This document shows positions 50,625-64,000 of a stretch of DNA of 64,000 nt, piece by piece. This DNA is from Winogradskyella sediminis (lineage in GTDB: Bacteria > Bacteroidota > Bacteroidia > Flavobacteriales > Flavobacteriaceae): the NCBI RefSeq assembly GCF_003387355.1, contig NZ_QUNH01000001.1, positions 1,188,023-1,252,022 of the forward strand. Direction: 5' to 3'. Position numbers and translations under genes: made by a program. The notes under the pieces were generated by a model, which ran no database searches, was not told where the DNA came from, and was given only the letters and a program-made list of their open reading frames with translations. Every line of letters starts with the position of its first letter. Position 1 is the first letter of the stretch.

Positions 50625-51356
50625 ATGAGAACGTTAGCTGTGGGAGATATACATGGAGGATTAAAAGGATTAATTCAGCTTTTAGATAAGCTACATTTAA
50701 AGCCTGATGATTCCTTAATCTTTTTAGGAGATTATGTTGATGGTTGGAGTGAAGCTGCACAAGTTATTGATTATATCATTGAATTGTCTAAAACACAATC
50801 TTGCGTATTTATTAAAGGTAACCATGATGTGTGGTGTGAGCAGTGGCTATCTACAGGTAATGTTAACGATGTTTGGTATCAACATGGCGGAAAAGAGACG
50901 ATAGAAAGTTATAAGACTTTTAGTGAAAATCAGCGTAAAATCCATCTGTTATTTTTTGAACAAATGAAATTGTATCATATTGATGCTCAAAACCGGCTTT
51001 TTCTTCACGCTGGTTTTACCTCAATGCACGGAGTAAAAAAAGAATCTGATTATGCTAATTTTTATTATGATAGAACCTTATGGGAAATGGCCATGGCAAT
51101 GGACGAATCTCTAAGTCCTGTATCAGAAAAATTTCCAAAGCGTTTTAAACATTATTCAGAAATTTACATTGGGCATACACCAACTATTAATTACAATATT
51201 GAAGTGCCTATTAACGTCGCTAACGTCTGGAATGTAGATACAGGATCCGCATTTACAGGTAAATTATCTGCAATAGATGTTGCTACTAAAGAAGTGTTTC
51301 AAAGTGATAAGCTTACAGATTTATATCCGGATGAATTAGGACGAAATAAAAAATAG
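50625..51356 (+). CDS. PPP-type metallophosphoesterase
   Basis: A 243-residue cytoplasmic phosphoesterase with the complete metal-binding set of the serine/threonine phosphatase or ApaH family: GDIHGGLKGL, GDYVDGW, KGNHDVW and IGHTPT. It could dephosphorylate proteins or hydrolyse dinucleoside polyphosphates. It is a single gene with its own promoter. In contrast with the minus-strand phosphoesterase at 56144 it keeps all ligands. Confidence 0.88.
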   Translation: MRTLAVGDIHGGLKGLIQLLDKLHLKPDDSLIFLGDYVDGWSEAAQVIDYIIELSKTQSCVFIKGNHDVWCEQWLSTGNVNDVWYQHGGKETIESYKTFSENQRKIHLLFFEQMKLYHIDAQNRLFLHAGFTSMHGVKKESDYANFYYDRTLWEMAMAMDESLSPVSEKFPKRFKHYSEIYIGHTPTINYNIEVPINVANVWNVDTGSAFTGKLSAIDVATKEVFQSDKLTDLYPDELGRNKK

Positions 51357-51422: not shown

Positions 51423-51449
51423 TTAAGTGTTTATTATAAGATCACTTAA
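51423..51449. terminator. Possible bidirectional terminator
   Basis: TTAAGTG (51423-51429) pairs with CACTTAA (51443-51449) around a 13-base loop, between convergent genes; the right arm covers the stop codon of the minus-strand glycosyltransferase. Stem of 7 bp without a good T-run, so low confidence. Confidence 0.3.
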
Positions 51450-52291
51450 CACACATACTTCTTGTAATAAGCTAACAAGTCATCAGCGGAGGCACCCAAC
51501 CATTTTTTTACATAAATGGTCCAGAAGTGATATTGCAATGTCCAAACTCCATGTTTTCGGTACAGTCTTGCTGAGGTTTTAATTTTTTTATTGATGACCA
51601 CATATTCATTTCGAGCGTAGAGTTCATTGATTAAGATATTGTCTTCATAAATAATGTAGTTTTCGTCATAACCACCAATGTCATTAAACAGTGTTTTGGT
51701 TATAAACTGACTCTGGTCGCCACCTCTGCAAGCACGCCAAGAAAATTGGGTAAACCAACTCGCTAATTGTAGCCACCAATGATTACTGTCAAATTGCAAT
51801 CTAAAACAACCGGCTTTATTTCCTTTGTTAACTTCATTAATAATCAGTTGGTCAAAATTTTTTGGCGGAAACGAGTCGGCATGAAGAAAATATAAGATAT
51901 TTCCTGTGGCATGTTTTGCGCCTAAATTCATTTGTTTGGCTCTGCCTTTTTTAGAATTAATTAAAAGAATTTTAGATTGATTTTGAAAGTCTGCACTTCG
52001 TTCAGTGTCTATAACATCGCTGCATAGTTGAACGTCAGTTCGAGTGAAATTCCTTTTTTTGAATTTTGTGTCGAGAACATTCTTATTAGCTTCTCGATTC
52101 AATTCTTCACGTTGTTCAGAATCACTCGAAGTGACGAAATCGCTAATAATATTTAAAGTTCCATCTGTACTTCCACCATCCACAACAATTATTTCCGAAA
52201 TATTAGAAGCCGATACATTTTGTTTAATATGGTATAATAATTTACCAATAGTATCAACTTCATTTAAAACAGGAATAATAATACTTATCAT
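51446..52291 (-). CDS. TIGR04283-type glycosyltransferase with repeat-derived insertion
   Basis: A 281-residue GT2 protein. The core matches the TIGR04283 family found with ArsS: IIPVLNEVDTI, IIVVDGGSTDGTL, KKGRAKQMNLGAKH, FLHADSFPP and the late GGYDENYIIYEDN. The usual length is about 230. The extra 50 residues (about 53-104) lie between GGSTDGT and KGRAKQMN, and residues about 52-87 are encoded by two inverted copies of the family C repeat (52033-52136). The frame stays open, so a modified protein is probably made, with a hydrophilic loop close to the nucleotide-sugar site. Last gene of the minus-strand arsenosugar-like run. Confidence 0.85.
   Translation of the reverse strand: MISIIIPVLNEVDTIGKLLYHIKQNVSASNISEIIVVDGGSTDGTLNIISDFVTSSDSEQREELNREANKNVLDTKFKKRNFTRTDVQLCSDVIDTERSADFQNQSKILLINSKKGRAKQMNLGAKHATGNILYFLHADSFPPKNFDQLIINEVNKGNKAGCFRLQFDSNHWWLQLASWFTQFSWRACRGGDQSQFITKTLFNDIGGYDENYIIYEDNILINELYARNEYVVINKKIKTSARLYRKHGVWTLQYHFWTIYVKKWLGASADDLLAYYKKYVC
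52033..52136. repeat. Inverted pair of family C repeats inside a CDS
   Basis: Copy 1 at 52033-52077 (begins CGTCAGTTCGAGTGA, ends GTCGAGAA) and copy 2 in reverse orientation at 52090-52136 (reverse complement begins CGTCACTTCGAGTGA and ends TCGAGAAG). Both match the intergenic copy at 3975-4024. Together they form a long imperfect inverted repeat within the glycosyltransferase reading frame. Confidence 0.75.
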
Positions 52292-52324
52292 AGAGCTATT
52301 TACGAAAAACTAGAGCATGTACTT

Positions 52325-53110
52325 TTAATCATTTAAATCCCAGTTGTAATCTTTAAAGCTTTTTTTAGCTGCACGTGAAATTTTTACATCCGAATATTGA
52401 TTTAAGAAGTCTATTAAATCGCCATCATGTTCAAAATCTTTTTTAAACCATTTAAAGATTTTAGACAGTTTAATGTGGTCTTCTGAAATTTCATTTTTAG
52501 AAGCATCGTTTAAGAATTCTTTAGTCGCTTTTGTTAATTGTGTTTCTAAATTTGAAGCTGTAAAGGCTTCGTTCTGTAATTTCGGACAGGAAATAGAGGC
52601 ACAAACTATCGCAAAATGAATACGAGGTTCGTTCATTTCTCTTAAAATCTTGTGCTCAATATTATTAAGATTTTGCCAAGTGCCGCCAAATTGCCAAAGG
52701 CGTTGATCCCAAGGATCTTTGATGTCTTTAATACTTTTTACAGGGTAATTTCTAAGAATTAAATCTATGGTAAGCGCGTTATAAGCATTTATCCAATAGG
52801 CTAGTTTTTCATTTTTAGACCATGTGTCATCAGGTAATGTTTCACTTAAATAATCGATGTAGACGTCAAATTCTGAATCGTTTTTTATGGCTTCATAATT
52901 CACATTTCCATTAATGGTAACATGCTTTTGTAAAATGGAATGCCATCTATTGTGCATGGATTCCTTATAATTTTCAGACTGCTTTGGTGGTTTAGGCGGC
53001 AGAGGAAGGTGAACTTCAACATTGTTGTCTTGATGTTTAATTGGGGTTTGAAAACCCAAACAAGACGATGTGAAAATAAGGGTGATAAGTAATGTTGATA
53101 GATAGTTCAT
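52325..53110 (-). CDS. DUF547 secreted protein
   Basis: A 261-residue protein with a signal peptide (LLITLIFTSSC; the Cys may be a lipobox) and a DUF547 domain: NEKLAYWINAYNALTID, YPVKSIKDI, PRIHFAIVCASISCP. DUF547 proteins have a papain-like or transglutaminase-like fold and conserved Cys and His, with unknown substrate. DUF547 genes are commonly found beside ArsS and TIGR04282/TIGR04283 genes, which supports membership of the arsenosugar-like cluster here. Confidence 0.87.
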   Translation of the reverse strand: MNYLSTLLITLIFTSSCLGFQTPIKHQDNNVEVHLPLPPKPPKQSENYKESMHNRWHSILQKHVTINGNVNYEAIKNDSEFDVYIDYLSETLPDDTWSKNEKLAYWINAYNALTIDLILRNYPVKSIKDIKDPWDQRLWQFGGTWQNLNNIEHKILREMNEPRIHFAIVCASISCPKLQNEAFTASNLETQLTKATKEFLNDASKNEISEDHIKLSKIFKWFKKDFEHDGDLIDFLNQYSDVKISRAAKKSFKDYNWDLND

Positions 53111-53121
53111 CTTAGATGTTG

Positions 53122-54024
53122 TTAGGGTTGAGGTTTACGTTTTTGCTGAAATGCAGGATATGCCGATTGCCTAATAAAGTCTTTTGGAAAATTTTCATCA
53201 TCATCAAAACCAAGTTCAATATCTCTACCATCGTGTGGAATATAGTCTGTCTTAAAAATGTAATCCCACAAACTGAGGGTAATGCCAAAATTCACACCAA
53301 AGCGTTCGCCTTTAGGTAATTCTTTTACATGATGCCAAATGTGCATTTTAGGATTGTTGAAAATGTATTTAAAGACGCCATAATCCCACCCCAAGTTGGC
53401 GTGATTTAAATGCCCAATAGTGATGTTAAAGAAATATACAATCGCTACATCTTGCGCATCAAAACCACCGATGATTGCCAAAGGAATATACAATAGTGAC
53501 TTGTACACCACAGGTTCCATCCAATGGTAACGTAGATGTCCTGCGAAGCCCATTTCTTTGATGCTGTGATGTACTTTATGGAAGTTCCAGAGCCATTCAA
53601 AACGGTGTAAAAGTCGGTGTGTGTTCCATTGTACAAAATCAGAAACGATAAAAAGAATAAATAAGCCCAACCATCTAGGCAGTGCTTTAATATCGACTAA
53701 CTGGAAACTAGAAACCGATAAACCAACCAGCCCTAAAACATCATTAAATGCTTCTGAAACTGTATTAGATAAGGCAATGAGTATAATAAGGTTTAATATG
53801 AAGAAATTGAAAAACATATAAAAAATGTCTAACCAAAAATCCTTTCTAAAAAGCGCTTGCTCTTTTCGCCATGGGAATGCAATTTCTAAAATCCAGACTA
53901 AAACTGAAATTAGAATAAGACCATAAAAATAGTTGTCCCAATGATTAAGGTCAATGAGTTCATATTTTAAATAATTCCAGTAATTGGAATAGGATTTGGT
54001 GAATATGTCTAGGTATTTTTCCAT
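53122..54024 (-). CDS. Sterol desaturase / fatty acid hydroxylase family membrane protein
   Basis: A 300-residue protein with four to five membrane helices and the three histidine clusters that bind a di-iron centre: HRLLHRFEWLWNFHKVHH split as HRLLHR and HKVHH, HLNHANLG, and HIWHHVKE. The family hydroxylates or desaturates lipids, or cleaves ether bonds. It starts 11 bases before the DUF547 gene on the same strand. Within an arsenosugar-like cluster, a role in modifying a lipid or lipid-linked product is possible but unproven. Confidence 0.88.
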   Translation of the reverse strand: MEKYLDIFTKSYSNYWNYLKYELIDLNHWDNYFYGLILISVLVWILEIAFPWRKEQALFRKDFWLDIFYMFFNFFILNLIILIALSNTVSEAFNDVLGLVGLSVSSFQLVDIKALPRWLGLFILFIVSDFVQWNTHRLLHRFEWLWNFHKVHHSIKEMGFAGHLRYHWMEPVVYKSLLYIPLAIIGGFDAQDVAIVYFFNITIGHLNHANLGWDYGVFKYIFNNPKMHIWHHVKELPKGERFGVNFGITLSLWDYIFKTDYIPHDGRDIELGFDDDENFPKDFIRQSAYPAFQQKRKPQP

Positions 54025-54029
54025 GCAAC

Positions 54030-54047
54030 TTCCTGCGAAGGCAGGAA
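54030..54047. repeat. Family B palindrome
   Basis: TTCCTGC-gaag-GCAGGAA, 7-bp arms, 5 bases upstream of the start codon of the sterol-desaturase gene. Related palindromes lie at 56977-56994 and 63765-63784, also just upstream of minus-strand genes of the same cluster. Confidence 0.65.
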
Positions 54048-54060
54048 TCTTATTTTTAAT

Positions 54061-54087
54061 CCTGCAAGGTTTTAAAAACCTTGTAGG
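54061..54087. repeat. Family A-like hairpin
   Basis: CCTGCAAGGTTTT and AAAACCTTGTAGG form a near-perfect inverted repeat, in the 170-base gap between the purine nucleoside phosphorylase and sterol-desaturase genes. Confidence 0.65.
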
Positions 54088-54120
54088 TATTGATTCTTTA
54101 TTTTATTGGACATTTTATTA

Positions 54121-54153
54121 GACCTACAAGGTTTTTTGAAACCTAGCAGGTCT
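54121..54153. repeat. Family A repeat
   Basis: GACCTACAAGGTTT pairs with AAACCTAGCAGGTC imperfectly. The core AGACCT-type arms match copies at 3926 and 5868. Second element in the same gap. Confidence 0.65.
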
Positions 54154-54194
54154 TCCTCAAAGGCTCTGTAGGATTGTCCGTATCTTGCCAACTT

Positions 54195-55007
54195 TTAAAG
54201 CGTCTTTATCAACTGCTTAAAAAGTGTAATCATATGTGGTTCTGCCTTTTCTGCCATAGCAATAATTTCAGAAATATCAACAGGTTTCAAGTTGTCTGGA
54301 TCACATTCATCTGTTAACACCGAAACTGCAGCGACTTTGAGCTTAAGGTGATTAGCGACTATAATTTCGGGCACAGTACTCATGCCAACGGCATCTGCAC
54401 CAATAGTTTTCAGCATTCTGTATTCTGCTCGTGTTTCTAACTGCGGACCAACCACTGAAGCATAAACTCCTTTGTGTAAGGTGATGTTTTGCGCTTTAGC
54501 AATACTTTCAAATTTTGAATTGATGTCTGCATCATAAGGTGCGCTCATATCTGCAAAACGTTCACCTAATTCAGACACTCCTTTAAAGGCTAAAGGCGAA
54601 CCTCCTTGTAAATTTAGGTGGTCGTCAATAAGCATTAATTCTCCTTTTTTGAAATCTAAATTTACAGCTCCAGCAGCATTAGAAACTAACAACGTTTTAA
54701 TCCCTAATTTTTCCATAATGCGAACTGGAAACGTAACATCTTGTAAAGTATAGCCTTCATAAATATGAAAACGACCTTGCATAACAACGACTTTTTTTCC
54801 GGCAAGATTACCGTAAATAAGTTTGCCTTTATGAAATTCTACAGTGGCTGTGGGGAAATTTGGAATGTGATTATAACTGGCTTCGGCTATAATGTCTATT
54901 TCATTAATTAATTGTCCCAAACCGGTTCCTAAAATGATGCCGATTTCCGGGTTGTCAAAACCTTTGCTTTGTAAATATTCTGTGCTTTCTGTTATCTGTT
55001 TAATCAT
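54195..55007 (-). CDS. Purine nucleoside phosphorylase
   Basis: 270 residues from ATG 55007 (the frame extends upstream to 55064, but that part lies inside the previous gene). Family signatures: GIILGTGLGQL, MQGRFHIYEGY, LLVSNAAGAVNL and VGPQLETRAEYRMLKTIGAD split as VGPQLETRAEY and KTIGAD. It cleaves purine nucleosides with phosphate to the base and ribose 1-phosphate. The start overlaps the upstream TIGR04282 gene by 8 bases. Next to ArsS, whose product is an arsenic-containing adenosine, it is a good candidate to remove the adenine, but ordinary purine salvage is also possible. Confidence 0.9.
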   Translation of the reverse strand: MIKQITESTEYLQSKGFDNPEIGIILGTGLGQLINEIDIIAEASYNHIPNFPTATVEFHKGKLIYGNLAGKKVVVMQGRFHIYEGYTLQDVTFPVRIMEKLGIKTLLVSNAAGAVNLDFKKGELMLIDDHLNLQGGSPLAFKGVSELGERFADMSAPYDADINSKFESIAKAQNITLHKGVYASVVGPQLETRAEYRMLKTIGADAVGMSTVPEIIVANHLKLKVAAVSVLTDECDPDNLKPVDISEIIAMAEKAEPHMITLFKQLIKTL

Positions 55008-55629
55008 TGAGTTGTTGTATTTTTTCTTGTAATTTGATATTCGATTTATAGAAATCTGAAGCAATTAAGTCTTCGTAAGTATCTATATCATTTAAAGTGT
55101 CTAAGGTACTAACGGAAACATTATTTTTCTGTAACTCTTGTAACGTTTCTGTTAATAAATGGGGTTGACTCCAAGGTTTATTTGTAAAAACGGAAGCTTC
55201 AAGCTGAGACATGCCTACTAAATAATAACCACCATCTTCCGCTGGTCCGAACACAACGTCATTAGCTTCTAAAGCCTTTAGACCATTCATAATATGTGTG
55301 GCATTAATATCTGGTAAATCGGAACCAATTAGTACTATTCTTTTATAACCGGCTTCAAAACCGTCTTTAAAAGCATTCATCATACGTTCGCCTAAATCAT
55401 TTCCGTTTTGTACCGTTTTATAATCGTTTGGCCATTGCGATTCCACTACAGTATTAGAAAAATAAATACGTTTATCTATAGGTAATTGTTCGGTTGCGTT
55501 TTCGGTGATTTTAACCAATTCTGTGTAAACTTCAAAAGCTCCAAGATTGCCAATGGTTTTTGCGAGTCGTGTTTTTACAGTTCCTAAAGTGATGTTTTTT
55601 ACAAACACAATTACGAGTGTATCAGTCAT
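55000..55629 (-). CDS. TIGR04282-type glycosyltransferase / nucleotidyltransferase-like protein (complete)
   Basis: A 209-residue protein with the full TIGR04282 (DUF2064) signature: N-terminal VFVKNITLGTVKTRLA, then GNDLGERM, LIGSDLPDI and GPAEDGGYYLVG. The fold resembles CofC/MobA nucleotidyltransferases; the family is tied to arsenosugar-type clusters by co-occurrence with ArsS. It overlaps the rhodanese gene by 8 bases upstream and the phosphorylase gene by 8 downstream, so the three are translationally coupled. The chemistry is unproven. Confidence 0.87.
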   Translation of the reverse strand: MTDTLVIVFVKNITLGTVKTRLAKTIGNLGAFEVYTELVKITENATEQLPIDKRIYFSNTVVESQWPNDYKTVQNGNDLGERMMNAFKDGFEAGYKRIVLIGSDLPDINATHIMNGLKALEANDVVFGPAEDGGYYLVGMSQLEASVFTNKPWSQPHLLTETLQELQKNNVSVSTLDTLNDIDTYEDLIASDFYKSNIKLQEKIQQLND

Positions 55630-56113
55630 ATATTTTATTTCCTTTTAATAGCCATTGGCTCCAATGATGAGAAAATGCATGTACATTTTCTGTTTCTCCT
55701 TCCTTATTATAAACTTTGAAATTAGTATTCTTCCATTCAAAAATACCACCAAATAAGTTGTATACGTTGGTGTAACCGTTCTTTTTAAGTTGCTCTGCGA
55801 TATCTTCTGAGCGAATGCCCAACGAACAATACACCACAATAGTTGCCGATTTATTTGGTAATAAAGCTGTTGTGGCTTCTAAATTAAACGCTTCATAACC
55901 AACGTGTATGGCATTCTCTAAATGACTAACCTTAAACTCTGAAAGTTCTCTAGCATCTAGCAAAATAGCTTCCGTTTTTGGCATCGCTAATTCCTCTACA
56001 GAAATGTATGGTATATTTTCTTTATTATGCGTTTTTAAAAGTTCATGAATCGTTTCTTGGCTATGTCCCAGATAGCTTAAGAGTAAAAACGATAGGATAA
56101 CAATTTTTTGCAT
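55622..56113 (-). CDS. Periplasmic rhodanese-domain protein
   Basis: A 163-residue protein with a Sec signal peptide (ILSFLLLSYLGHS, about 1-18) and one rhodanese domain. The active-site loop is CSLGIRSEDIA with an intact catalytic Cys. Rhodaneses transfer sulfane sulfur or bind oxyanions such as arsenate. Export to the periplasm and coupling to TIGR04282 suggest a role in handling a sulfur or arsenic species outside the cytoplasm, but this is inference. Confidence 0.86.
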   Translation of the reverse strand: MQKIVILSFLLLSYLGHSQETIHELLKTHNKENIPYISVEELAMPKTEAILLDARELSEFKVSHLENAIHVGYEAFNLEATTALLPNKSATIVVYCSLGIRSEDIAEQLKKNGYTNVYNLFGGIFEWKNTNFKVYNKEGETENVHAFSHHWSQWLLKGNKIYD

Positions 56114-56143
56114 GTGCTTTTAGTGTAAATAATTTACTTAACC

Positions 56144-56971
56144 TTACAGTAGTATGGTTTTTCCTTGTAATTGTTTTTCGGGTTCAGGTAAAATTTCCAT
56201 GTTATCCCAAATACCAGAGACTATAGTTTTTGCATAAGATTCTGGTAATAATCCGTTTAACATCAGTTGATTTGTGCGTTTATAATTGTAATCTAATCTA
56301 CGGAAATTTACTGTAGTCGATTGCTCGGAATCGTCCAAGATAGCATACCAAACACTAGGATTTCCGTCGTTGGCAGGCATACCAATAACGCCAGGATTAA
56401 CCCAAAGTTTGTCGTCTTGTTGGTCTAAAAAAGGTAAACCACAATGTCCTGCAATGATGATATCACTTTTTGTGGCTGAAAAATTTTTAGCTTTTATGGA
56501 CCAATCTGTAGATTTGAAAATAAATTCTGAAATATTAAAACAAGAACCATGAACAACCATCACGTTTTGATTCCCAATAGTAAAAGTAATATGGTCAGGA
56601 AGCGTTTCAAGATAATTTAAAGAATCCTTTGATAATTTACTTTTAGCATAAGGATACCATTGTTGGGAAAAATTATCACATCGTGAGCCTTCTCTAAAAT
56701 CGCAGCCACAATCGTCTTCATCATCGCGCAATTGTATTTCTACATTGCCAACAATGCTTTTTGCGTTCCAGTTTTTAAACGTTTGAATGGTTTCTTCTGG
56801 CTGAGCACAGTACCCAATAATGTCGCCTGTACAAATACAATTTTCTGGCGGAATACCTTCTGATTCTGCTACAGCAATTAAAGCTTCTAGCGCTTGAAGA
56901 TTACTGTAAACACCACCAAATAGTAATACTTTACCAGTTAAATGTCCTATGTCTGTTATTTTTTTATCCAT
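56144..56971 (-). CDS. YfcE-like metallophosphoesterase with degenerate metal site
   Basis: 275 residues from ATG 56971 (a GTG at 56983 is in frame, but overlaps a palindromic repeat). The fold motifs are clear, but ligands are missing: the usual S-D-x-H-G-N reads GGVYSN (Gly20, Tyr22), the usual GNHD reads GNVE (Val77), and the usual GHTH reads GHCG. CTGDIIGYC (Asp50), Asn76 and VHGSC remain. There are many cysteines (CICTGDIIGYC, DDCGCDF, RCDNF). It is probably not a normal phosphoesterase and may bind a ligand or a soft metal or metalloid. It belongs to the arsenosugar-like run, upstream of the rhodanese gene. Confidence 0.83.
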   Translation of the reverse strand: MDKKITDIGHLTGKVLLFGGVYSNLQALEALIAVAESEGIPPENCICTGDIIGYCAQPEETIQTFKNWNAKSIVGNVEIQLRDDEDDCGCDFREGSRCDNFSQQWYPYAKSKLSKDSLNYLETLPDHITFTIGNQNVMVVHGSCFNISEFIFKSTDWSIKAKNFSATKSDIIIAGHCGLPFLDQQDDKLWVNPGVIGMPANDGNPSVWYAILDDSEQSTTVNFRRLDYNYKRTNQLMLNGLLPESYAKTIVSGIWDNMEILPEPEKQLQGKTILL

Positions 56972-56976
56972 AACAT

Positions 56977-56994
56977 TTTCCACGAAAGTGGAAA
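56977..56994. repeat. Family B palindrome variant
   Basis: TTTCCAC-gaaa-GTGGAAA, 7-bp arms, between the SSS symporter stop and the metallophosphoesterase start. The layout (palindrome then ATCT) matches the copies at 54030 and 63765, with the stem changed at both arms so that pairing is kept. Confidence 0.55.
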
Positions 56995-56996
56995 TC

Positions 56997-58337
56997 TCAT
57001 TTTTTTGATTTCAACCATTTCGGAATGAAATATATAATATTACAACTTAAAATTCCCCAAATATTTACCCAAAGCAAGTCCGCATATTTACCTTGCGTGA
57101 AAATTAATGATTCAGGAAATACATTAAAAACCAGCAAGAACCCAAAAATTAATCCTGTGATAATACTCAAATAAAAACTGATTTTTGGGGCTTTCATTTT
57201 CCAGAATAGAAAAATTGGTGTTAAGCCAATAACCATAGTTCCAGAAATGGTGGTTGCAGATAAAATTTCGGCATTTAAAAATATGGGTAAGGTGCCTAAA
57301 ATAGCAATGGCAGCCATGGAAGCACGTCCGAATGTGAGGTCTTTTACCATGCCTAAATCAATAACCAGTAATTTAGAAAATGACGAAAATGTAGAGTCTA
57401 ATGTCGACGCTGCAGAGGTAATCATTATAAAATTAATAACTAAAAGAATAATAACACCGAATGCTTTACCAACTTGCACTGCTGCCTGACCAGTAAAGCC
57501 TTGTGTTTGTGCATAAACACCAATAATACTAAATAAAATAATACAAATAGCACCTAATAAACTTGCCCACAAAAAGCTTTTACGCGTGACTTTTGGCGAA
57601 CTTATAAATGCTCTATCCGTTAAAACTGGGTCGTGAAAGGGATAACTGAAGGATTGAATAAAGGCAGCAAAAAATAAGTTTAAACCCAACTCAAAACTCC
57701 ATGTACCTGATGACGTAACATCATTAATGGTAAAGGATTCCACTGAAAAGATTTTCCAAAGGATGACTAATAATAAAACACTAAATAAGACCATTTGAAT
57801 CACATCTGTAAAAATGGAACTGCTTAAACCACCTTTAATCGCATAGGCTAAAGTTAAGGCTGTAAAAACCACAATGGCCCAATAATAATTTGAGCTTCCA
57901 ATGTCTCCGAAATAACTTCCAATAACCATGGTGTTACTCCAAACTTCATTAAATAAACGAATAGCAATTAAAATTGAAAATAAAGCCATGGCACCTTTGC
58001 CGAATTTACTCGTTAGGAATTCATGAATACTCTTAAAACCACCAACAGTTCTAATTTTATAAATCAATACACCTGCTACAGCAAAAGATAAATAATAACC
58101 AGCATAAGCCACACCACCAACTATACCAAAGCTTAAGCCTAAATTGGCAGCATTGGTAATACTCTTGGCAAATATCCAAGAAATAATAAGGCTACCAGTA
58201 AGCACCAAAGCATTTGGCGCTTTCTTTTTATGAACGGCCTTGAAAAATTGGTCTGTAGTTTTAGCTAATGGCGAAAGCACAAAGAGCAAAACACTCGATG
58301 TGACTATTAAAAGCCATTGCCAGTCAATTATATCCAT
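56997..58337 (-). CDS. Sodium:solute symporter (SSS family)
   Basis: A 446-residue inner-membrane protein with about twelve to thirteen helices and the SSS-family pattern (GGVAYAGYYLSFAVAG, RTVGGFKSIHEFL, ITSAASTLDSTFSSFSKLL for the sodium-site helix, shown as ITSAASTLDSTFSS). It imports an organic solute with Na+. It lies 6 bases after the SusD gene, so outer-membrane uptake by SusC/SusD and inner-membrane uptake by this symporter probably serve one substrate. Substrate unknown; sugars, nucleosides, carboxylates and vitamins are all handled by the family. Confidence 0.88.
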   Translation of the reverse strand: MDIIDWQWLLIVTSSVLLFVLSPLAKTTDQFFKAVHKKKAPNALVLTGSLIISWIFAKSITNAANLGLSFGIVGGVAYAGYYLSFAVAGVLIYKIRTVGGFKSIHEFLTSKFGKGAMALFSILIAIRLFNEVWSNTMVIGSYFGDIGSSNYYWAIVVFTALTLAYAIKGGLSSSIFTDVIQMVLFSVLLLVILWKIFSVESFTINDVTSSGTWSFELGLNLFFAAFIQSFSYPFHDPVLTDRAFISSPKVTRKSFLWASLLGAICIILFSIIGVYAQTQGFTGQAAVQVGKAFGVIILLVINFIMITSAASTLDSTFSSFSKLLVIDLGMVKDLTFGRASMAAIAILGTLPIFLNAEILSATTISGTMVIGLTPIFLFWKMKAPKISFYLSIITGLIFGFLLVFNVFPESLIFTQGKYADLLWVNIWGILSCNIIYFIPKWLKSKK

Positions 58338-58343
58338 ACGTTT

Positions 58344-59786
58344 TTATTCATTCCACCACACTGGCACATTTATACTATTGTTATCGGTTGCAGATGCAGC
58401 AAGACTATAATTTTCAAAATTTAAAGCTTCTTCTTCCGCAGGATAAGGCATTCTTACCGGAATTAAATCGTTGTTTAAACTCGCAGAAATGGTTCTTAAT
58501 TCAGGGAAACCTGTTCTTCTAAATTCTATCCAACCTTCATAGCCATTAATCACATTGGCTATCCATTTTTGAGTTAAAATTTGCTCAATAGGATTAGACC
58601 CAAAAGCATTGTAAGCCGCAGGACCAGTTAAATAATCGGCTGGTAATTCTGTGTTCCAATATTCAAAAGCCAACGTAACTCCATTATTGTATAACGTTTG
58701 TGCATCTGCGGAAATTATGTTTTTGGCAGCCGCTTCTGCTAAAGCAAATTGCACTTCCCAAGCGGTAATAAAATTAGCGTCTAAAGTAGAGGTGTCTTCT
58801 CTAAAAGCAGTACTTGCTAACGAGTAATCGGCTAAGGCAATAGAAGTGGAAGACGCATCGATGCCATTTAATAATCCGTTATATTCATTTGTAGTTGAAT
58901 TAGAAAACGGACGAAATAAACTTGAAATTCTAGTGTCGTTTAAATTTATTAAAATATCTTCCATTGTTTCAGATAACACGAAGTTGTTGAAATCTCCAAT
59001 GCGTAATTGTGCTAATCTAAAACTGTTTGGGTCTGTATTTGTAAAGTTGAAAATAGCATTCTCACTGTTTGAAGTGATATAATTGCCTTCATCAAAAAGC
59101 GTTTGTAAATCATTAGATACATCTATTTTATCTGAAATACGAAGCAAATGTTTGATTTTTAAAGCGTTTGCAAATTTTACCCAAGCGTCTAAATCTCCAT
59201 AAAATAAAATATCGCCTTCGAGTGGAATGGCATCCGAATAGGCTTCAATGGCAGCAATACCTTTATCTAAATTATTTAAAATACCGTTTTCATTCAGGTA
59301 AATATCTTCCTGTAAATCATAATTAGGTGTAACGGAACCTTCAATACCATTAAAGGCTTCAAAATACGGTACGTCTCCAAATAAATCAGTTAAACCAGCA
59401 GCCATATAGGCTTTTAAGATTAACGCAGGACCTTCGTAAACCGCAAAAGTCTCCACAGTTTGCGATTGCTTTAAAATGATTTCATTGTCTCTTAAGTTGG
59501 TATAAAATATAGGCCAAGGATTACCACCTAATTGTGGCGATTTTAAAGCATGTCTATCAAATAAATTAAAATCTAAAGCGGTTCTGTGTTGTGCTAATAA
59601 GTCGCCAGCCACAAAACCTTCGTAGCTCATGTTTTCGCCAAAATCATAAATCACTTGTCGCAGCAACAAACTCGGTTGTACTGAACTTGGCGAGTTAGGA
59701 TTGGTATTGATATCTTCAAAATCTTTGGTACAGCTTATTGTAAAAATTAAACTTAAAATTGAAATGGTATATATAAATTTTTTCAT
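58344..59786 (-). CDS. SusD/RagB-family outer-membrane lipoprotein
   Basis: A 480-residue lipoprotein (signal ILSLIFTISC, Cys19) of the SusD-like type, with FEDINTNPNSPSS just after the lipobox, helical repeats through the middle and the C-terminal pattern QKWIANVINGYEGWIEFRRTG, cited as NGYEGWIEFRRTG. SusD proteins sit as a lid on the SusC pore and bind the incoming substrate. It is 9 bases from the SusC gene. The gene is not near the alpha-glucan enzymes at the left end and no glycoside hydrolase is beside it, so its cargo is probably not a polysaccharide. Confidence 0.93.
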   Translation of the reverse strand: MKKFIYTISILSLIFTISCTKDFEDINTNPNSPSSVQPSLLLRQVIYDFGENMSYEGFVAGDLLAQHRTALDFNLFDRHALKSPQLGGNPWPIFYTNLRDNEIILKQSQTVETFAVYEGPALILKAYMAAGLTDLFGDVPYFEAFNGIEGSVTPNYDLQEDIYLNENGILNNLDKGIAAIEAYSDAIPLEGDILFYGDLDAWVKFANALKIKHLLRISDKIDVSNDLQTLFDEGNYITSNSENAIFNFTNTDPNSFRLAQLRIGDFNNFVLSETMEDILINLNDTRISSLFRPFSNSTTNEYNGLLNGIDASSTSIALADYSLASTAFREDTSTLDANFITAWEVQFALAEAAAKNIISADAQTLYNNGVTLAFEYWNTELPADYLTGPAAYNAFGSNPIEQILTQKWIANVINGYEGWIEFRRTGFPELRTISASLNNDLIPVRMPYPAEEEALNFENYSLAASATDNNSINVPVWWNE

Positions 59787-59795
59787 CGTACTATT

Positions 59796-62700
59796 TTAGA
59801 AATTAAATCCGGCTTTAAAACCAATGCTTCGTGTTGTGGCATAACTCATATCTTCAACACCACTTACAAATCCGTTGCCTTGTACGGCTAATTGTTCTGG
59901 GTCAAAATGTGGATTTTCAGTAATGGCGAATAAATTATTTCCTACCAAAGACAGGTTTAAATCTGCACCTTCTTTTAAGCCTAAAAAGCCATCTTTAAAA
60001 TTAAAGGTGTAACCAATGGCACATTGACGCAGTTTTAAAAATGACGCATCGTAAACATTGTTTTCTTCATGGTTTCTATCGTAAAATTGTCTGTAATAAC
60101 TTTCTGCTGTAATGGCAACCGTATTTGCTGCACCAGTATTAACATTAACACCCTGTGCCACAATGCCGTCCTCTGGTCTGTAACTGGTTTCGGCTAGTTG
60201 GCCACCAACATTTCCTAAGGCGCGTGTTCTAGAAACGATTTCGCCTCCTTGTCGCCAATCGAATAAAAAGCTTAGGTTCCAATTTTTATAATTGAAATTG
60301 TTTCGCCATCCTAAAGTGAAATCTGGATTGTAATTTCCTAGCTTTTTTAAATTGTCATCAGCAATGTAATTCCCGTTATCATCAATTAAAAATTGTCCGT
60401 TATCATTTTTCTGATAAGCTGTTCCGTAGAAATCGCCAACACGTCCGCCTTCTTCCACTTGAAACCAAACGGTTTGGTTAGAACTATCATAAATTCTACT
60501 GTAAGCGAGTGTTAGGCGTCCATCAGATTGTGGTAAATCTTTAATCACTGAACGGTTTGTAGCGAAATTAAACGTGGTGTTCCAGTTAAAATTATCCGTT
60601 TGTATTGGTGTAATGCCTAAAATGATTTCTACACCTTGCATGTTTACTTTTCCGCCATTTACCACTTGCTGACTGTAACCTGAAGAAATAGCGACTGGTA
60701 ACGAAATGATTTGGTCTTCGGTGTTGGCATTGTAATACGTAAAATCTAATCGTAATTTATTATCTAAAAAACGTAAATCGGTACCAAACTCATAAGAAGT
60801 GGTACGTTCTGGTTTTAAATTAGAATTAGGAATAAAATCTTGGTTGCTAAAGGTTGGCTCGCTATTGTAAGGCGTTTGCGATACAAAAGCGCCAGAAGTT
60901 TGGTACGCACTGGTATCATTTCCTACTTGGGCAATACTCGCTCTTAACTTTGCAAAAGAGAATATCCTTGGCAATTCCGTAACGTTAGATAAAATAAAAC
61001 TCGACGATACAGAAGGGTAGAAGAATGATGTACCATCTACCGAAAATGGTGTTGCTAAAGCACTAGACCAATCATTTCGGCCTGTAATATCTAAAAACAG
61101 AAAATCTTTATATCCGAATTTTGTAATGCCATAAAATGAATTGATGCGTTTTTCACTTTCAAATTGAAACGTTTCAATGGGCGAAGCTGCATTATTGAGA
61201 TTGTAAATTCCAGGTTGCGCCAAACTCACAGTTTGCGATTGATTTGTGGTTGCGGTTTGGTTAAGTCTATTGCCACCTAAAAACACATCCACAGAAAAGT
61301 CATTAAACTGATTTTTATAGTTGATTAAAAAATCGGTATTCACTTCTCTAAACATTACATCGTGCTCTGCATAAGCACCATTGCTAAAACGATTGCTACT
61401 ATAAGCGCGTCTTAACTGACGCTTTTCTGTACTGTAATCCATTCCTGTTCTTAATGAAATACTTAGGTTTTTGGCTAATTCTTGAGTAATAGAAATGTTC
61501 CCAAAAATGCGGTCACGATTAAATGCATTGGTGTTTTCATTCAAGATAAAATACGGATTATCAAAAAACGTATAATTAAAAGAATATTGTTGCGTGCCTT
61601 CTAAACCAGGTTGCCAATAATCCTTTAAATTTTCAATATTTAAAGAACGTGGTCCCCAAGCCACAAGCGAATAATTGGCGTTTTCACTTCCGTAACCATT
61701 AGAAGGTCTGTTGTCGCTACTAGAATTTATATAACTAATAGACGCATTAATTTCGGTCTTTTCACTTGGATTAAAATTTAATTTTGCCGCAATGGTTTGT
61801 CTATCTAAATTAACACCAGGAATAATAGATTCACTTCTTAAATCTGTAAATGACAGTCGGTAGTTTCCGGAATCAAATCCATTAGAAACTGAAATGTTAT
61901 TAATGGTTGTGGTCCCAGTTTGATAGAAATCTTTTAAGTTATCTGGATTTGAAATAAAAGGTGTCGCAGTAATGTCTAAACCGTTATAAAGTGCAGTGTC
62001 GCCACCTCTTACAACAGAACCATTTGCTAATTGCACAGGACTATCAAATTGCGGAATAAGTAAACCAGCATCTAAACGTGGTCCCCAAGAATAGGTAATA
62101 TTATCGTTGATGCCACCACCAAGACCATCAACATATTCAAACTGACCAGAATTTCCTTGACCATAAGAATTTTGAAAATCAGGTAATCTAAAGGCCGAAT
62201 CTACAAACAATGAGGTGTTGATACTAATGCCTAAGCCTCTTTTGTTACTACCATTTTTAGTGTTGATAACAATAACACCATTAGAGGCTCTTGTACCATA
62301 CAAAGCTGCAGCACTTGGTCCTTTTAAAACGGTAACAGACGCAATATCATCCGGATTTACTTCCATACCACCATTTCCAAAATCAATTTCTTGAAATCCA
62401 GCAGCAGCTTCATTAGTAAAATTAAAAACAGTTTCGTTATTAATAGGTACACCATCTACCACAAACAAAGGATTGTTATTAGAAAAAGACGCTTCGCCTC
62501 TAATGGTAATTTTAGAAGACGACCCAACACCAGTTGCGCCTTTTGTAACGGTTACACCAGCCAATTTGCCTTGTAAGTTGTCTAAAAAATTAATGGTTTT
62601 TACCTCGTTTAAACTTTTTGAGGAAATCGCTTGTACAGCATAACCCAATTCTTTGGTATCGCGTTCTAAACCTAATGCTGTAATAACAACTTCATCTAAA

Positions 62701-62990
62701 GCCGCAGAATCTTCTTCTAAAGTAACATTAATTAGGGTTTGGTCGCCAACCACAATAGTTTGAGATTTAAAACCTAAAAACGAAAATGTAAGTGTATCTG
62801 AGTTAGACGAAACCACAATGTTGTACGTTCCATCGTCATTTGTTGTGGTGCCTAAACCTGTGTTTGATGTAATGTTTACAAACGGTAAAGGTGTTGCAGA
62901 AACCGCATCTGTGACGATTCCGGTAATTGTAATTTGAGCATTACTGAAAAAGCATAAGCATAGCAGTAAGCCTGTGTAAATGTGCTTCAT
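59796..62990 (-). CDS. SusC/RagA-family TonB-dependent outer-membrane receptor
   Basis: A 1064-residue protein: signal peptide (YTGLLLCLCFFSNA), CarboxypepD-type regulatory domain (about 20-105; TGIVTDAVSATPLPFVNI), plug domain (about 110-240; IRGEASFSNNNPLFVVDGVPI spans it, with GPSAAALYGTRASNGVI at its end) and a 22-strand barrel. It uses TonB energy to move substrate through the outer membrane with the SusD partner. Full length for the family. It stands between the TIGR04282 paralogue and SusD on the same strand. An 88-base gap upstream has a small palindrome (CCACA/TGTGG at 62998-63010). Confidence 0.94.
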   Translation of the reverse strand: MKHIYTGLLLCLCFFSNAQITITGIVTDAVSATPLPFVNITSNTGLGTTTNDDGTYNIVVSSNSDTLTFSFLGFKSQTIVVGDQTLINVTLEEDSAALDEVVITALGLERDTKELGYAVQAISSKSLNEVKTINFLDNLQGKLAGVTVTKGATGVGSSSKITIRGEASFSNNNPLFVVDGVPINNETVFNFTNEAAAGFQEIDFGNGGMEVNPDDIASVTVLKGPSAAALYGTRASNGVIVINTKNGSNKRGLGISINTSLFVDSAFRLPDFQNSYGQGNSGQFEYVDGLGGGINDNITYSWGPRLDAGLLIPQFDSPVQLANGSVVRGGDTALYNGLDITATPFISNPDNLKDFYQTGTTTINNISVSNGFDSGNYRLSFTDLRSESIIPGVNLDRQTIAAKLNFNPSEKTEINASISYINSSSDNRPSNGYGSENANYSLVAWGPRSLNIENLKDYWQPGLEGTQQYSFNYTFFDNPYFILNENTNAFNRDRIFGNISITQELAKNLSISLRTGMDYSTEKRQLRRAYSSNRFSNGAYAEHDVMFREVNTDFLINYKNQFNDFSVDVFLGGNRLNQTATTNQSQTVSLAQPGIYNLNNAASPIETFQFESEKRINSFYGITKFGYKDFLFLDITGRNDWSSALATPFSVDGTSFFYPSVSSSFILSNVTELPRIFSFAKLRASIAQVGNDTSAYQTSGAFVSQTPYNSEPTFSNQDFIPNSNLKPERTTSYEFGTDLRFLDNKLRLDFTYYNANTEDQIISLPVAISSGYSQQVVNGGKVNMQGVEIILGITPIQTDNFNWNTTFNFATNRSVIKDLPQSDGRLTLAYSRIYDSSNQTVWFQVEEGGRVGDFYGTAYQKNDNGQFLIDDNGNYIADDNLKKLGNYNPDFTLGWRNNFNYKNWNLSFLFDWRQGGEIVSRTRALGNVGGQLAETSYRPEDGIVAQGVNVNTGAANTVAITAESYYRQFYDRNHEENNVYDASFLKLRQCAIGYTFNFKDGFLGLKEGADLNLSLVGNNLFAITENPHFDPEQLAVQGNGFVSGVEDMSYATTRSIGFKAGFNF

Positions 62991-63078
62991 ATTAAGACCA
63001 CAATGTGTGGCGATTTTTTTGAGATGTTTTGGTTTGAATGAAAAAATCGTGGGAATTAGAACAATTTAAATTCCCGTT

Positions 63079-63759
63079 TTAAATATGAAGTAAAATAGGC
63101 GAGCCTTTGTTATGGTGCTTTTTGAAAATTGATTTATCATGAAAAACAGCCGTAAAACTAGAGTTTGTTTGAATGGCTTTCCGAAGCTTTAAGAGTAACT
63201 TTTTTATCTTAAAATCTAACGGTTTGAAACTTTCTAAGATTAGCTCAAAATCCGAAGCATCATCGATATCTGATAAAGTTTCAAGATAAGCGGTTTTTAT
63301 TTGTTGCTGTTGTAGTTCCGCATTTAAACAATGACGAAGTTGTTTGGTTTGCCAAGGTAAATTCTGAATTTTAGTGGTATTAAAATGCGTTTGTTTGAAA
63401 CCCATTAAATAAAAACCACCATCCGTAGAAGGTCCTAAAACAACATCAGAATGATTTAGTTTGTCCTTTGCCTTTAATATATGATTGGCTGTAAGATGCG
63501 GTATATCATTACCAAGCGTAATAACCTGGTTAAAACCTTTGTTGTAAATGGCATCAATAGCATTTGTAAAACGCTCGCCAAAGGTGTTTCCTATTTGTTC
63601 TTTTTCAGAATAATGAAAATAAGGTAAACCTGTTTTTTCAACCGTTTTTACCGTTTTAGAATCTAGCAATTCAAAAAAATCAGCAGAAGCAACTGATGAA
63701 GACATCAATTCTTTTTCTGCAGAATTTGCAAAGATTAATATGGCGGTTTTTTTATTCAT
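63079..63759 (-). CDS. TIGR04282-type paralogue with degenerate N-terminal motif
   Basis: A 226-residue protein related to the one at 55000-55629. It keeps GNTFGERF, LGNDIPHL and GPSTDGGFYLMG, but the N-terminal KTRL-type phosphate-binding motif is lost: after ILIFANSAEKE there is no basic loop. It also has a C-terminal extension of about 25 residues. It lies directly after ArsS (37-base gap with a palindrome). It may have another substrate, be a binding protein, or work with the complete paralogue. Confidence 0.83.
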   Translation of the reverse strand: MNKKTAILIFANSAEKELMSSSVASADFFELLDSKTVKTVEKTGLPYFHYSEKEQIGNTFGERFTNAIDAIYNKGFNQVITLGNDIPHLTANHILKAKDKLNHSDVVLGPSTDGGFYLMGFKQTHFNTTKIQNLPWQTKQLRHCLNAELQQQQIKTAYLETLSDIDDASDFELILESFKPLDFKIKKLLLKLRKAIQTNSSFTAVFHDKSIFKKHHNKGSPILLHI

Positions 63760-63764
63760 ATGTC

Positions 63765-63784
63765 ATTCCTACGTAGGCAGGAAT
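63765..63784. repeat. Family B palindrome
   Basis: ATTCCT-8 bases-AGGAAT between the ArsS stop and the TIGR04282-paralogue start, 5 bases from the start codon. Same orientation and place as the other two copies. Confidence 0.6.
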
Positions 63785-63795
63785 CTAAATTTGTT

Positions 63796-64000
63796 TTAAG
63801 CAACAACACCTTGGCAGCTGCTTCCGGCACCTGCAGTACAACCATAGCAATGTTGTGAAATGACGATGTTTCGTCCTTCTAATAATTCTTCATTGAATTC
63901 TGAAATATGTTTAGACTTACTATTTACAGGCAATTCTAACATTTGGTTAAAATCGCAATCAAATAAATAGCCATCCCAACTAATGGATAGTGTATTAGTA
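63796..64000 (-). CDS. arsS: Radical SAM protein ArsS, C-terminal part (cut by window edge)
   Basis: An open frame from the right edge to a stop at 63796 gives 67 C-terminal residues, including SWDGYLFDCDFNQMLELP and the end HCYGCTAGAGSSCQGVVA. The Cys-rich terminus is that of the ArsS family (TIGR04167), which joins a dimethylarsenic group to the 5'-deoxyadenosyl moiety of SAM in arsenosugar synthesis. In some members the SSC position is selenocysteine; here it is TGC (Cys). The radical-SAM core lies outside the window. It is the most upstream visible gene of the minus-strand cluster. Confidence 0.85.
   Translation of the reverse strand, partial: TNTLSISWDGYLFDCDFNQMLELPVNSKSKHISEFNEELLEGRNIVISQHCYGCTAGAGSSCQGVVA

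Follow-up and report, generated by a model that had tools for sequence, protein, structure and literature searches.

We investigated a run of twelve co-directional genes on the minus strand of Winogradskyella sediminis DNA (positions 51446–64000; eleven whole genes and the 3′ end of arsS), located at the end of the window, i.e., the whole 64,000-nucleotide stretch that was analyzed. We found that the run is a known core, built around the radical SAM enzyme ArsS, plus a separable five-gene module, and not one enlarged unit. The module, which encodes a CofC-like protein, a SusC/SusD pair (SusCD), a sodium symporter of the SSS family and a Cys-rich metallophosphoesterase-fold protein, is a unit that accompanies ArsS, and its presence is associated with the absence of the arsenic methyltransferase ArsM. 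This suggests that module-bearing cells scavenge arsenicals that other organisms have produced. We lean slightly toward the proposal that an arsenosugar-type cluster is here joined to a module importing an organoarsenical made by other organisms and that, because of this import, the cell's own ArsM is unneeded and has been lost repeatedly.

The link between the module and ArsS was examined in 139 genomes spread evenly over the family Flavobacteriaceae, 110 of which were ArsS-positive (TIGR04167 over its cut-off), and in a class-wide sample of 395 genomes, from which the counts outside the family were taken. In all statistics, each species is represented by a single genome, and the searches are presumed to detect ArsM. 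The module was scored by its metallophosphoesterase at an identity of at least 56%, and five matches at 24–32% were taken as other proteins. Within the family, 22 of the 139 genomes carried this gene and all 22 were ArsS-positive, with a module–ArsS distance below 10 kb in 21 and of about 180 kb in one (G074). Outside the family, 11 of the 12 genomes with the module gene were ArsS-positive, compared with 57 of 381 overall (p = 4e-9). The module adjoined ArsS in three of these genomes only (G378, G462 and G494), and therefore the co-occurrence is more than a shared neighborhood. SusC, SusD, SSS and the metallophosphoesterase formed one run in 10 of the 11 outside-family modules with a visible neighborhood; in the eleventh (G346), the metallophosphoesterase gene was inverted. 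The co-occurrence of SusCD and the symporter with ArsS, raised in an earlier note on this DNA, is thus borne out.

Separability was evident from gene order. The window genes were mapped onto the 80 best of at least 579 named ArsS loci, a few of the 80 being short contig ends; the closest, at 97%, were from Winogradskyella. The usual order was ahpD-arsS-rhodanese-TIGR04282-purine nucleoside phosphorylase (PNP), often followed by a methyltransferase, an FA_hydroxylase-family protein, DUF547 and TIGR04283; the one core methyltransferase tested matched NF038099 (“arsenosugar biosynthesis arsenite methyltransferase ArsM”) with 573.5 bits (cut-off 400). The module metallophosphoesterase was found in 27 of the 80 loci, alongside SusC in 25 of the 27, and was not shown in 53. 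The module usually read cofC1-susC-susD-sss-mpe and was flanked by arsS and the rhodanese gene, whereas it stood ahead of ahpD in two Maribacter loci and behind arsS in Leeuwenhoekiella; a module that varies in its place relative to arsS and ahpD is therefore a separate unit. All five genes were present in 19 of the 22 family-sample modules; G096 lacked the CofC-like gene, and G002 and G105 had SSS and the metallophosphoesterase only. Another genome of the same genus (G134) showed the window gene order with ArsM and without the module. As a side observation, the module CofC-like gene stood alone beside arsS or ahpD, with no SusCD, SSS or metallophosphoesterase gene, in L025, L052, L073, L111, L131 and other loci, possibly as a remnant after module loss, and in L025 an unidentified 1037-aa open reading frame followed. 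A DM13-domain secreted protein carrying a type IX secretion tail was inserted near PNP in several clusters (L007:19900-20628 and similar).

These observations bear on several claims of the earlier note. The twelve minus-strand genes in a row, from ArsS to the TIGR04283 glycosyltransferase, were all present, and their order recurs in many genera, which excludes a chance arrangement; the assignment of ArsS, TIGR04282, TIGR04283 and DUF547 proteins to an arsenosugar-type set is likewise supported. Conversely, the view of a single enlarged ArsS cluster had to be given up, considering the 53 named loci without the module, the Maribacter placement, the distant module of G074 and the mostly unlinked modules outside the family. 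Of the additions that had been called unusual, SusC/SusD, the symporter and the metallophosphoesterase do form a separable module, whereas rhodanese, PNP and the FA_hydroxylase-family protein turned out to be ordinary core members. The earlier note had named related genomes in which SusCD/SSS and ArsS stand apart as refuting its view; such genomes do exist, which weakens the idea of one set, while the functional link is kept by co-occurrence across genomes.

ArsM was searched for with the profile NF008823 (canonical ArsM, cut-off 263) and an AsSugarArsM protein query. No ArsM was found by these searches in the window genome, which is 99.9% complete: the best NF008823 match reached 34.8 bits, the AsSugarArsM query had no match at E ≤ 1e-40, and the gap between the PNP and FA_hydroxylase genes had no ArsM match over 45 bits by tblastn. 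An ArsM just beyond the window edge was ruled out by the adjoining bases and whole-genome searches, so that the earlier statement of its absence from the window, with the sequence beyond 64000 included, extends to the whole genome. In the family sample, AsSugarArsM was present in 86 of the 139 genomes, all 86 ArsS-positive (i.e., 86 of the 110 ArsS-positive genomes), as expected with one shared pathway. Canonical ArsM, over the NF008823 cut-off, was present in 15 family genomes, 13 of them ArsS-positive, and was more frequent in ArsS-positive genomes without AsSugarArsM (10/24) than in those with it (3/86; p = 8e-6). Because canonical ArsM is enriched where AsSugarArsM is missing, this supports methylated arsenic as a shared intermediate.

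The module was found in 10 of the 14 ArsS-positive family genomes without either ArsM, compared with 12 of the 96 with ArsM (p = 9e-6). Outside the family, it was found in 6 of 13 ArsM-less and 5 of 44 ArsM-positive ArsS genomes (p = 0.011), and pooling both gave an odds ratio of 11 (p = 7e-8). In the named loci, the ArsM slot after PNP was visible in 64 of the 80 (the 16 in which it was unseen, 10 with and 6 without the module, were not counted) and was empty in 13 of 17 loci with the module versus 3 of 47 without (p = 8e-8). Removing the 13 named loci that belong to family-sample genomes gave 11 of 15 versus 3 of 38 (p = 5e-6). Among Winogradskyella loci alone, the slot was empty in 5 of 6 with the module versus 0 of 13 without; W. 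psychrotolerans has both the module and ArsM. Winogradskyella thalassocola and Algibacter pectinivorans are among the module-bearing loci with an empty slot, and W. bathintestinalis is ArsM-positive with no module.

When every candidate was scored in the 27 ArsM-less ArsS-positive genomes of both samples, none exceeded 72.2 bits to NF008823. This is the level of general methyltransferases, and E. coli and B. subtilis also match at the threshold of this search; the ArsM types of the family sample score at least 112 bits. Matches of 192–230 bits (G089, G128 and G070) were not scored as canonical ArsM, and the ArsM-less group is the same either way. Additionally, G428 has directly after ArsS (C1:3581656-3582384) an ArsM-like protein of a third type, which is about 350 aa long and scores about 190 bits to NF008823, and matches of 173–188 bits also occurred in G196, G327 and G373. 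Gene retention was counted in 7 of the 10 module-bearing ArsM-less loci, namely those with PNP in the fetched stretch (the rest being G129, G066 and G046): rhodanese, TIGR04282, PNP, DUF547 and TIGR04283 were each present in 7 of 7, the FA_hydroxylase-family gene in 5, and ArsM in none. The core lay elsewhere in G129 and G066, likewise without ArsM, and in G010, G029, G050 and G136, with ArsM. Gene loss in these module-bearing, ArsM-less loci is specific to ArsM.

On a tree of ArsS and AhpD, ArsM-less module genomes appeared by eye at about eight places, in many cases next to a module genome in which ArsM is retained (G42/G33, G67/G125, G65/G11 and G46-G66-G129/G50). Pagel-type tests of dependent versus independent evolution (branch lengths capped at 0.6) supported a correlation of ArsM absence with the module (p = 6e-5 with 106 rows, 3e-4 with 110 rows, and 7e-5 with 110 rows on a FastTree of ArsS), of AsSugarArsM absence with the module (p = 0.002, 106 rows), and of AsSugarArsM loss with canonical ArsM (p = 4e-5 to 6e-5). 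The 106-row runs omitted four long rows (G2, G57, G58 and G32), two of which went against the hypothesis, and the tests of ArsM absence with the module and of AsSugarArsM loss with canonical ArsM were rerun with 110 rows. These p-values are rough, being based on custom code and on quick, weakly resolved trees in which few branches are well supported.

SusCD and SSS are importer families. The nearest solved SusC was 5fq6 chain B (BT_2264; 416.8 bits, with the runner-up at 139.1), the complex of which is spoken of with a peptide in PMC7782687, and no close solved relative was found for the SSS protein; these comparisons do not name the cargo. All 61 rows of the metallophosphoesterase-fold protein (57 distinct sequences, the window protein included, from the family and other Bacteroidia) showed Gly24, Tyr26 and Gly182, whereas Asp, His and His occupy these positions in five of five distant homologues. 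Asp54, Asn80, His145 and His180 are kept, the complete two-metal ligand set of a binuclear metallophosphoesterase is not present, and, judged by sequence, part of the metal center is lost. Four cysteines (Cys59, Cys92, Cys94 and Cys102) were invariant in all 61 rows, Cys92 and Cys94 also occurring in three of the five distant homologues, and a thiol site is possible. The earlier description of this protein as ligand-depleted and Cys-rich was accurate. Separately, metallophosphoesterases with both the Asp/His/His ligands and the DDCGC motif of the module protein were seen in L261, L262 and L263 (G093, G097 and G049) and are possible ancestors of it.

Regarding the PNP, the earlier note had proposed that it removes adenine from the ArsS product. 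The window PNP has Ile at the position that we take to correspond to human PNP His257 and Asp at the presumed Asn243. Of 89 core PNPs, 88 had Ile or Val at the former position, the remaining one being unreadable (X), and the proposed reaction is plausible from these residues. Asp occupied the latter in every PNP examined and therefore has no discriminating value. A dedicated role as adenine remover was ruled out, as the same PNP type occurred in 12 of 29 ArsS-negative family genomes (another type in 8, none in 9). Two further phosphorylase-superfamily genes are present in the window genome, and the PNP did not reach the cut-off of the methylthioadenosine phosphorylase profile TIGR01694 (93.9 bits vs 274.85).

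A cell with ArsS and without ArsM needs methylated arsenic from outside, and the retention of an importer with ArsS, tied to the absence of ArsM, fits this need. ArsS reportedly acts on dimethylarsenite, as Cheng and colleagues are said to have described in 2021. In the following scheme, what is carried, which way it is transported and how each enzyme acts are all inferred. An arsenic compound already methylated by others, probably algae or phytoplankton, would be transferred across the outer membrane by SusCD and across the inner membrane by SSS in a sodium-coupled manner, and the metallophosphoesterase-fold protein may then handle or free the arsenical in the cytoplasm via its conserved thiols. 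ArsS would join a 5′-deoxyadenosyl group to dimethylated arsenic. As the chemistry of their families suggests, PNP could swap adenine for phosphate, giving a 1-phosphate, and CofC-like activation and GT2 transfer could place the arsenoribose onto an acceptor. The earlier note had left a choice between uptake and remodeling of an arsenic- or a nucleoside-containing compound; arsenic uptake is the best reading, given that ArsM is absent with the module. Apart from this scheme, a gene for a transporter of the phosphate/arsenate-type PHO4 family stood beside ArsM in the core of nine genomes (G17, G60, G69, G75, G86, G121, G122, G128 and G029; loci L124, L133, L186, L163, L164, L193, L158, L126 and, for G029, L269; family label from one), all of which were ArsM-positive and none of which carried the SusCD module. 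This would fit arsenate entry for methylation.

Several observations weigh against import of an organoarsenical. Four of the 14 ArsM-less ArsS-positive family genomes (G043, G056, G058 and G083) lack the module; in their fetched stretches, rhodanese and TIGR04283 were each found in 1 of 4 and DUF547 in 2 of 4. Within these stretches, three of the clusters are reduced and that of G056 is intact. Outside the family, 7 of the 13 ArsM-less ArsS-positive genomes have no module. Twelve of the 22 module-bearing family genomes retain an ArsM, and therefore the module permits ArsM loss and does not exclude ArsM. G515 has the module metallophosphoesterase and canonical ArsM with no ArsS found in its assembly, which is 89% complete (L222, module neighborhood seen over 3 kb at a contig end). 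None of three independent-pair tests restricted to well-supported branches (6 pairs in each) reached significance; according to the Pagel-type fits, ArsM would be regained often, with some rates unrealistically fast, and the two trees disagree on the first change for canonical ArsM. No module protein belongs to an arsenic-linked sequence family, and the PNP type is shared with ArsS-negative relatives. Free dimethylarsinate would be an awkward SusCD cargo because SusCD cargo is usually larger; a lower cargo size limit is reported for one system (PMC7782687).

Some of these points would suit a module that imports a non-arsenic co-substrate, such as a glycosyl acceptor, nucleoside or peptide, for a late step of the pathway, with ArsM lost for another reason. 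The usually large cargo of SusCD, the ArsM retained in the 12 module-bearing genomes, and the nearest solved SusC, described in PMC7782687 as belonging to a peptide complex, all agree with it. However, it does not predict that module-bearing genomes should lose ArsM and no other steady core gene, and we regard it as unlikely. It is also conceivable, and in our view quite unlikely, that no imported arsenical is needed, either because an unrecognized methyltransferase is encoded elsewhere or because ArsS acts directly on inorganic arsenite. ArsM was called absent from searches with a single profile and a single protein query, and several ArsM subfamilies exist, e.g., the type beside ArsS in G428; yet the ArsM types of the family score well above anything in the ArsM-less genomes, and the link to the module would be left unexplained.

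The TIGR04167 cluster of these Bacteroidota might instead handle another soft element or thiophilic group, which the module would import; the arsenic label derives from a cyanobacterial enzyme, and none of the genes in the run matched a family with arsenic resistance in its name. AsSugarArsM lies inside the cluster in most relatives, canonical ArsM is enriched where AsSugarArsM is missing, and nine of the family genomes examined have a PHO4-type transporter next to ArsM, all of which make this very unlikely. As SusCD pairs are abundant in Flavobacteriaceae, an ordinary polysaccharide or nutrient locus might have come to lie beside ArsS by chance. To this we give next to no credence: the co-occurrence with ArsS within and outside the family, even where the two are unlinked, rules out a chance neighbor.

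The genes of the run and their profile matches are listed in Table 1. Intergenic gaps range from −8 to 88 bp, except for the one between PNP and the FA_hydroxylase gene. The PNP probably starts with the ATG at 55007 and not with the TTG at 55064. The symporter scored narrowly above the gathering threshold of PF00474 (25.2 vs 22.8) and far under the cut-off of TIGR00813 (37.9 vs 184). The core rhodanese is apparently exported, as its N-terminus, inspected by eye, indicates, and the FA_hydroxylase-family protein did not reach the cut-off for the ornithine lipid hydroxylase OlsE (NF052566, 81 bits vs 475).

Table 1. Positions and profile matches of the ArsS core and the five-gene module in W. sediminis.
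Feature	Position (strand)	Profile match and remarks
AhpD-like gene	64938-65273	TIGR04169, 193.1 bits vs cut-off 120; upstream of ArsS, beyond window edge
ArsS, radical SAM	63796-64857 (-)	TIGR04167, 442.8 bits vs 300; 353 aa; 205 bases (63796..64000) in window
Module gene 1, CofC/DUF2064-like	63079..63759 (-)	TIGR04282, 104.2 bits, under cut-off 134; N-terminus degenerate
Module gene 2, SusC/RagA TonB-linked outer-membrane transporter	59796..62990 (-)	TIGR04056, 619.9 bits vs 368
Module gene 3, SusD-like lipoprotein	58344..59786 (-)	PF12771, 294.9 bits vs 27; adjacent to SusC
Module gene 4, divergent SSS-family sodium symporter	56997..58337 (-)	PF00474
Module gene 5, Cys-rich metallophosphoesterase-fold protein	56144..56983 (-)	Metallophos_2, PF12850
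Core rhodanese	55622..56113 (-)	NF045521, 202.4 bits vs 145
Core CofC-like glycosyl/nucleotidyltransferase (second copy)	55000..55629 (-)	TIGR04282, 192.6 bits vs 134
Core purine nucleoside phosphorylase	54195..55007 (-)	NF006054, 343.2 bits vs 218; TIGR01700, 294.6 vs 293.35
Gap, 170 bp	54025..54194	ArsM (NF038099) slot of relatives
Core (variable) FA_hydroxylase-family membrane di-iron protein	53122..54024 (-)	PF04116
Core DUF547 protein	52325..53110 (-)	PF04784
Core TIGR04283 glycosyltransferase	51446..52291 (-)	TIGR04283, 228.2 bits vs cut-off 182

The profile matches the TIGR04283 protein as two stretches, with a seeming insertion of about 30–40 residues near residues 57–90. Near the cluster, a second metallophosphoesterase-like gene lies at 50625-51356 on the plus strand and points toward the cluster end; 28 of the 80 named loci have a homologue (62–70% identical) in the vicinity of the cluster. 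On the other side, a nucleoside deaminase-like gene (65365-65838; L004:3888-4361) directly precedes ahpD in the same orientation, and several Winogradskyella, Olleya and Lacinutrix loci have a xanthine dehydrogenase-like set between the deaminase gene and ahpD (labeled by reading the sequence, with no profile).

The module, tied to ArsS and to the absence of ArsM, is a candidate organoarsenical importer in marine Bacteroidota, which would link algal arsenic to bacterial arsenosugars and is testable by single gene removals. Tentatively, and with somewhat more doubt than belief, we suggest that dedicated organoarsenical scavenging via TonB/SusCD and a sodium symporter, with a metallophosphoesterase-derived arsenic-binding protein, exists in Bacteroidota and allows some marine bacteria to make arsenosugars without arsenic methylation of their own. 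A 2025 review calls the uptake mechanisms of arsenobetaine, arsenosugars and arsenolipids “largely unknown” (PMC12608789). No description of a SusCD/SSS module with ArsS was found in the titles and abstracts listed by searches of the Creative Commons-licensed literature.

Compared with known systems, the cluster is close to the arsenosugar pathway of Synechocystis, in which ArsS works with ArsM (PMC8552651), and radical SAM enzymes are described as adenosylating arsenic in oxo-arsenosugar biosynthesis (PMC12159101). ArsS is over its cut-off here and relatives carry AsSugarArsM in the cluster, whereas the window genome lacks ArsM and its cluster includes SusCD, SSS and the metallophosphoesterase-fold protein. 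Similarly, of the NCBIfam set comprising the arsenosugar-named TIGR04167, TIGR04169, TIGR04282, TIGR04283 and NF038099 together with NF045521 (rhoda_near_glyco), five of six are over their cut-offs here; NF038099 is missing, and the SusCD-SSS-metallophosphoesterase module is outside the set. As with the SusCD system BT_2263/BT_2264 (5fq6), SusC and SusD are over their family cut-offs, BT_2264 being by far the nearest solved SusC, but none of the module genes matches a peptidase or an enzyme of glycan degradation, the partners of SusCD being SSS and the Cys-rich metallophosphoesterase-fold protein. Finally, phytoplankton excrete dimethylarsinate, which is present in seawater, and SAR11 uses it (PMC6426599). 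SAR11 and the present bacterium would both be marine heterotrophs using arsenicals methylated by phytoplankton, but SAR11 demethylates them for energy, whereas here the arsenical would enter arsenoribose through another transporter.

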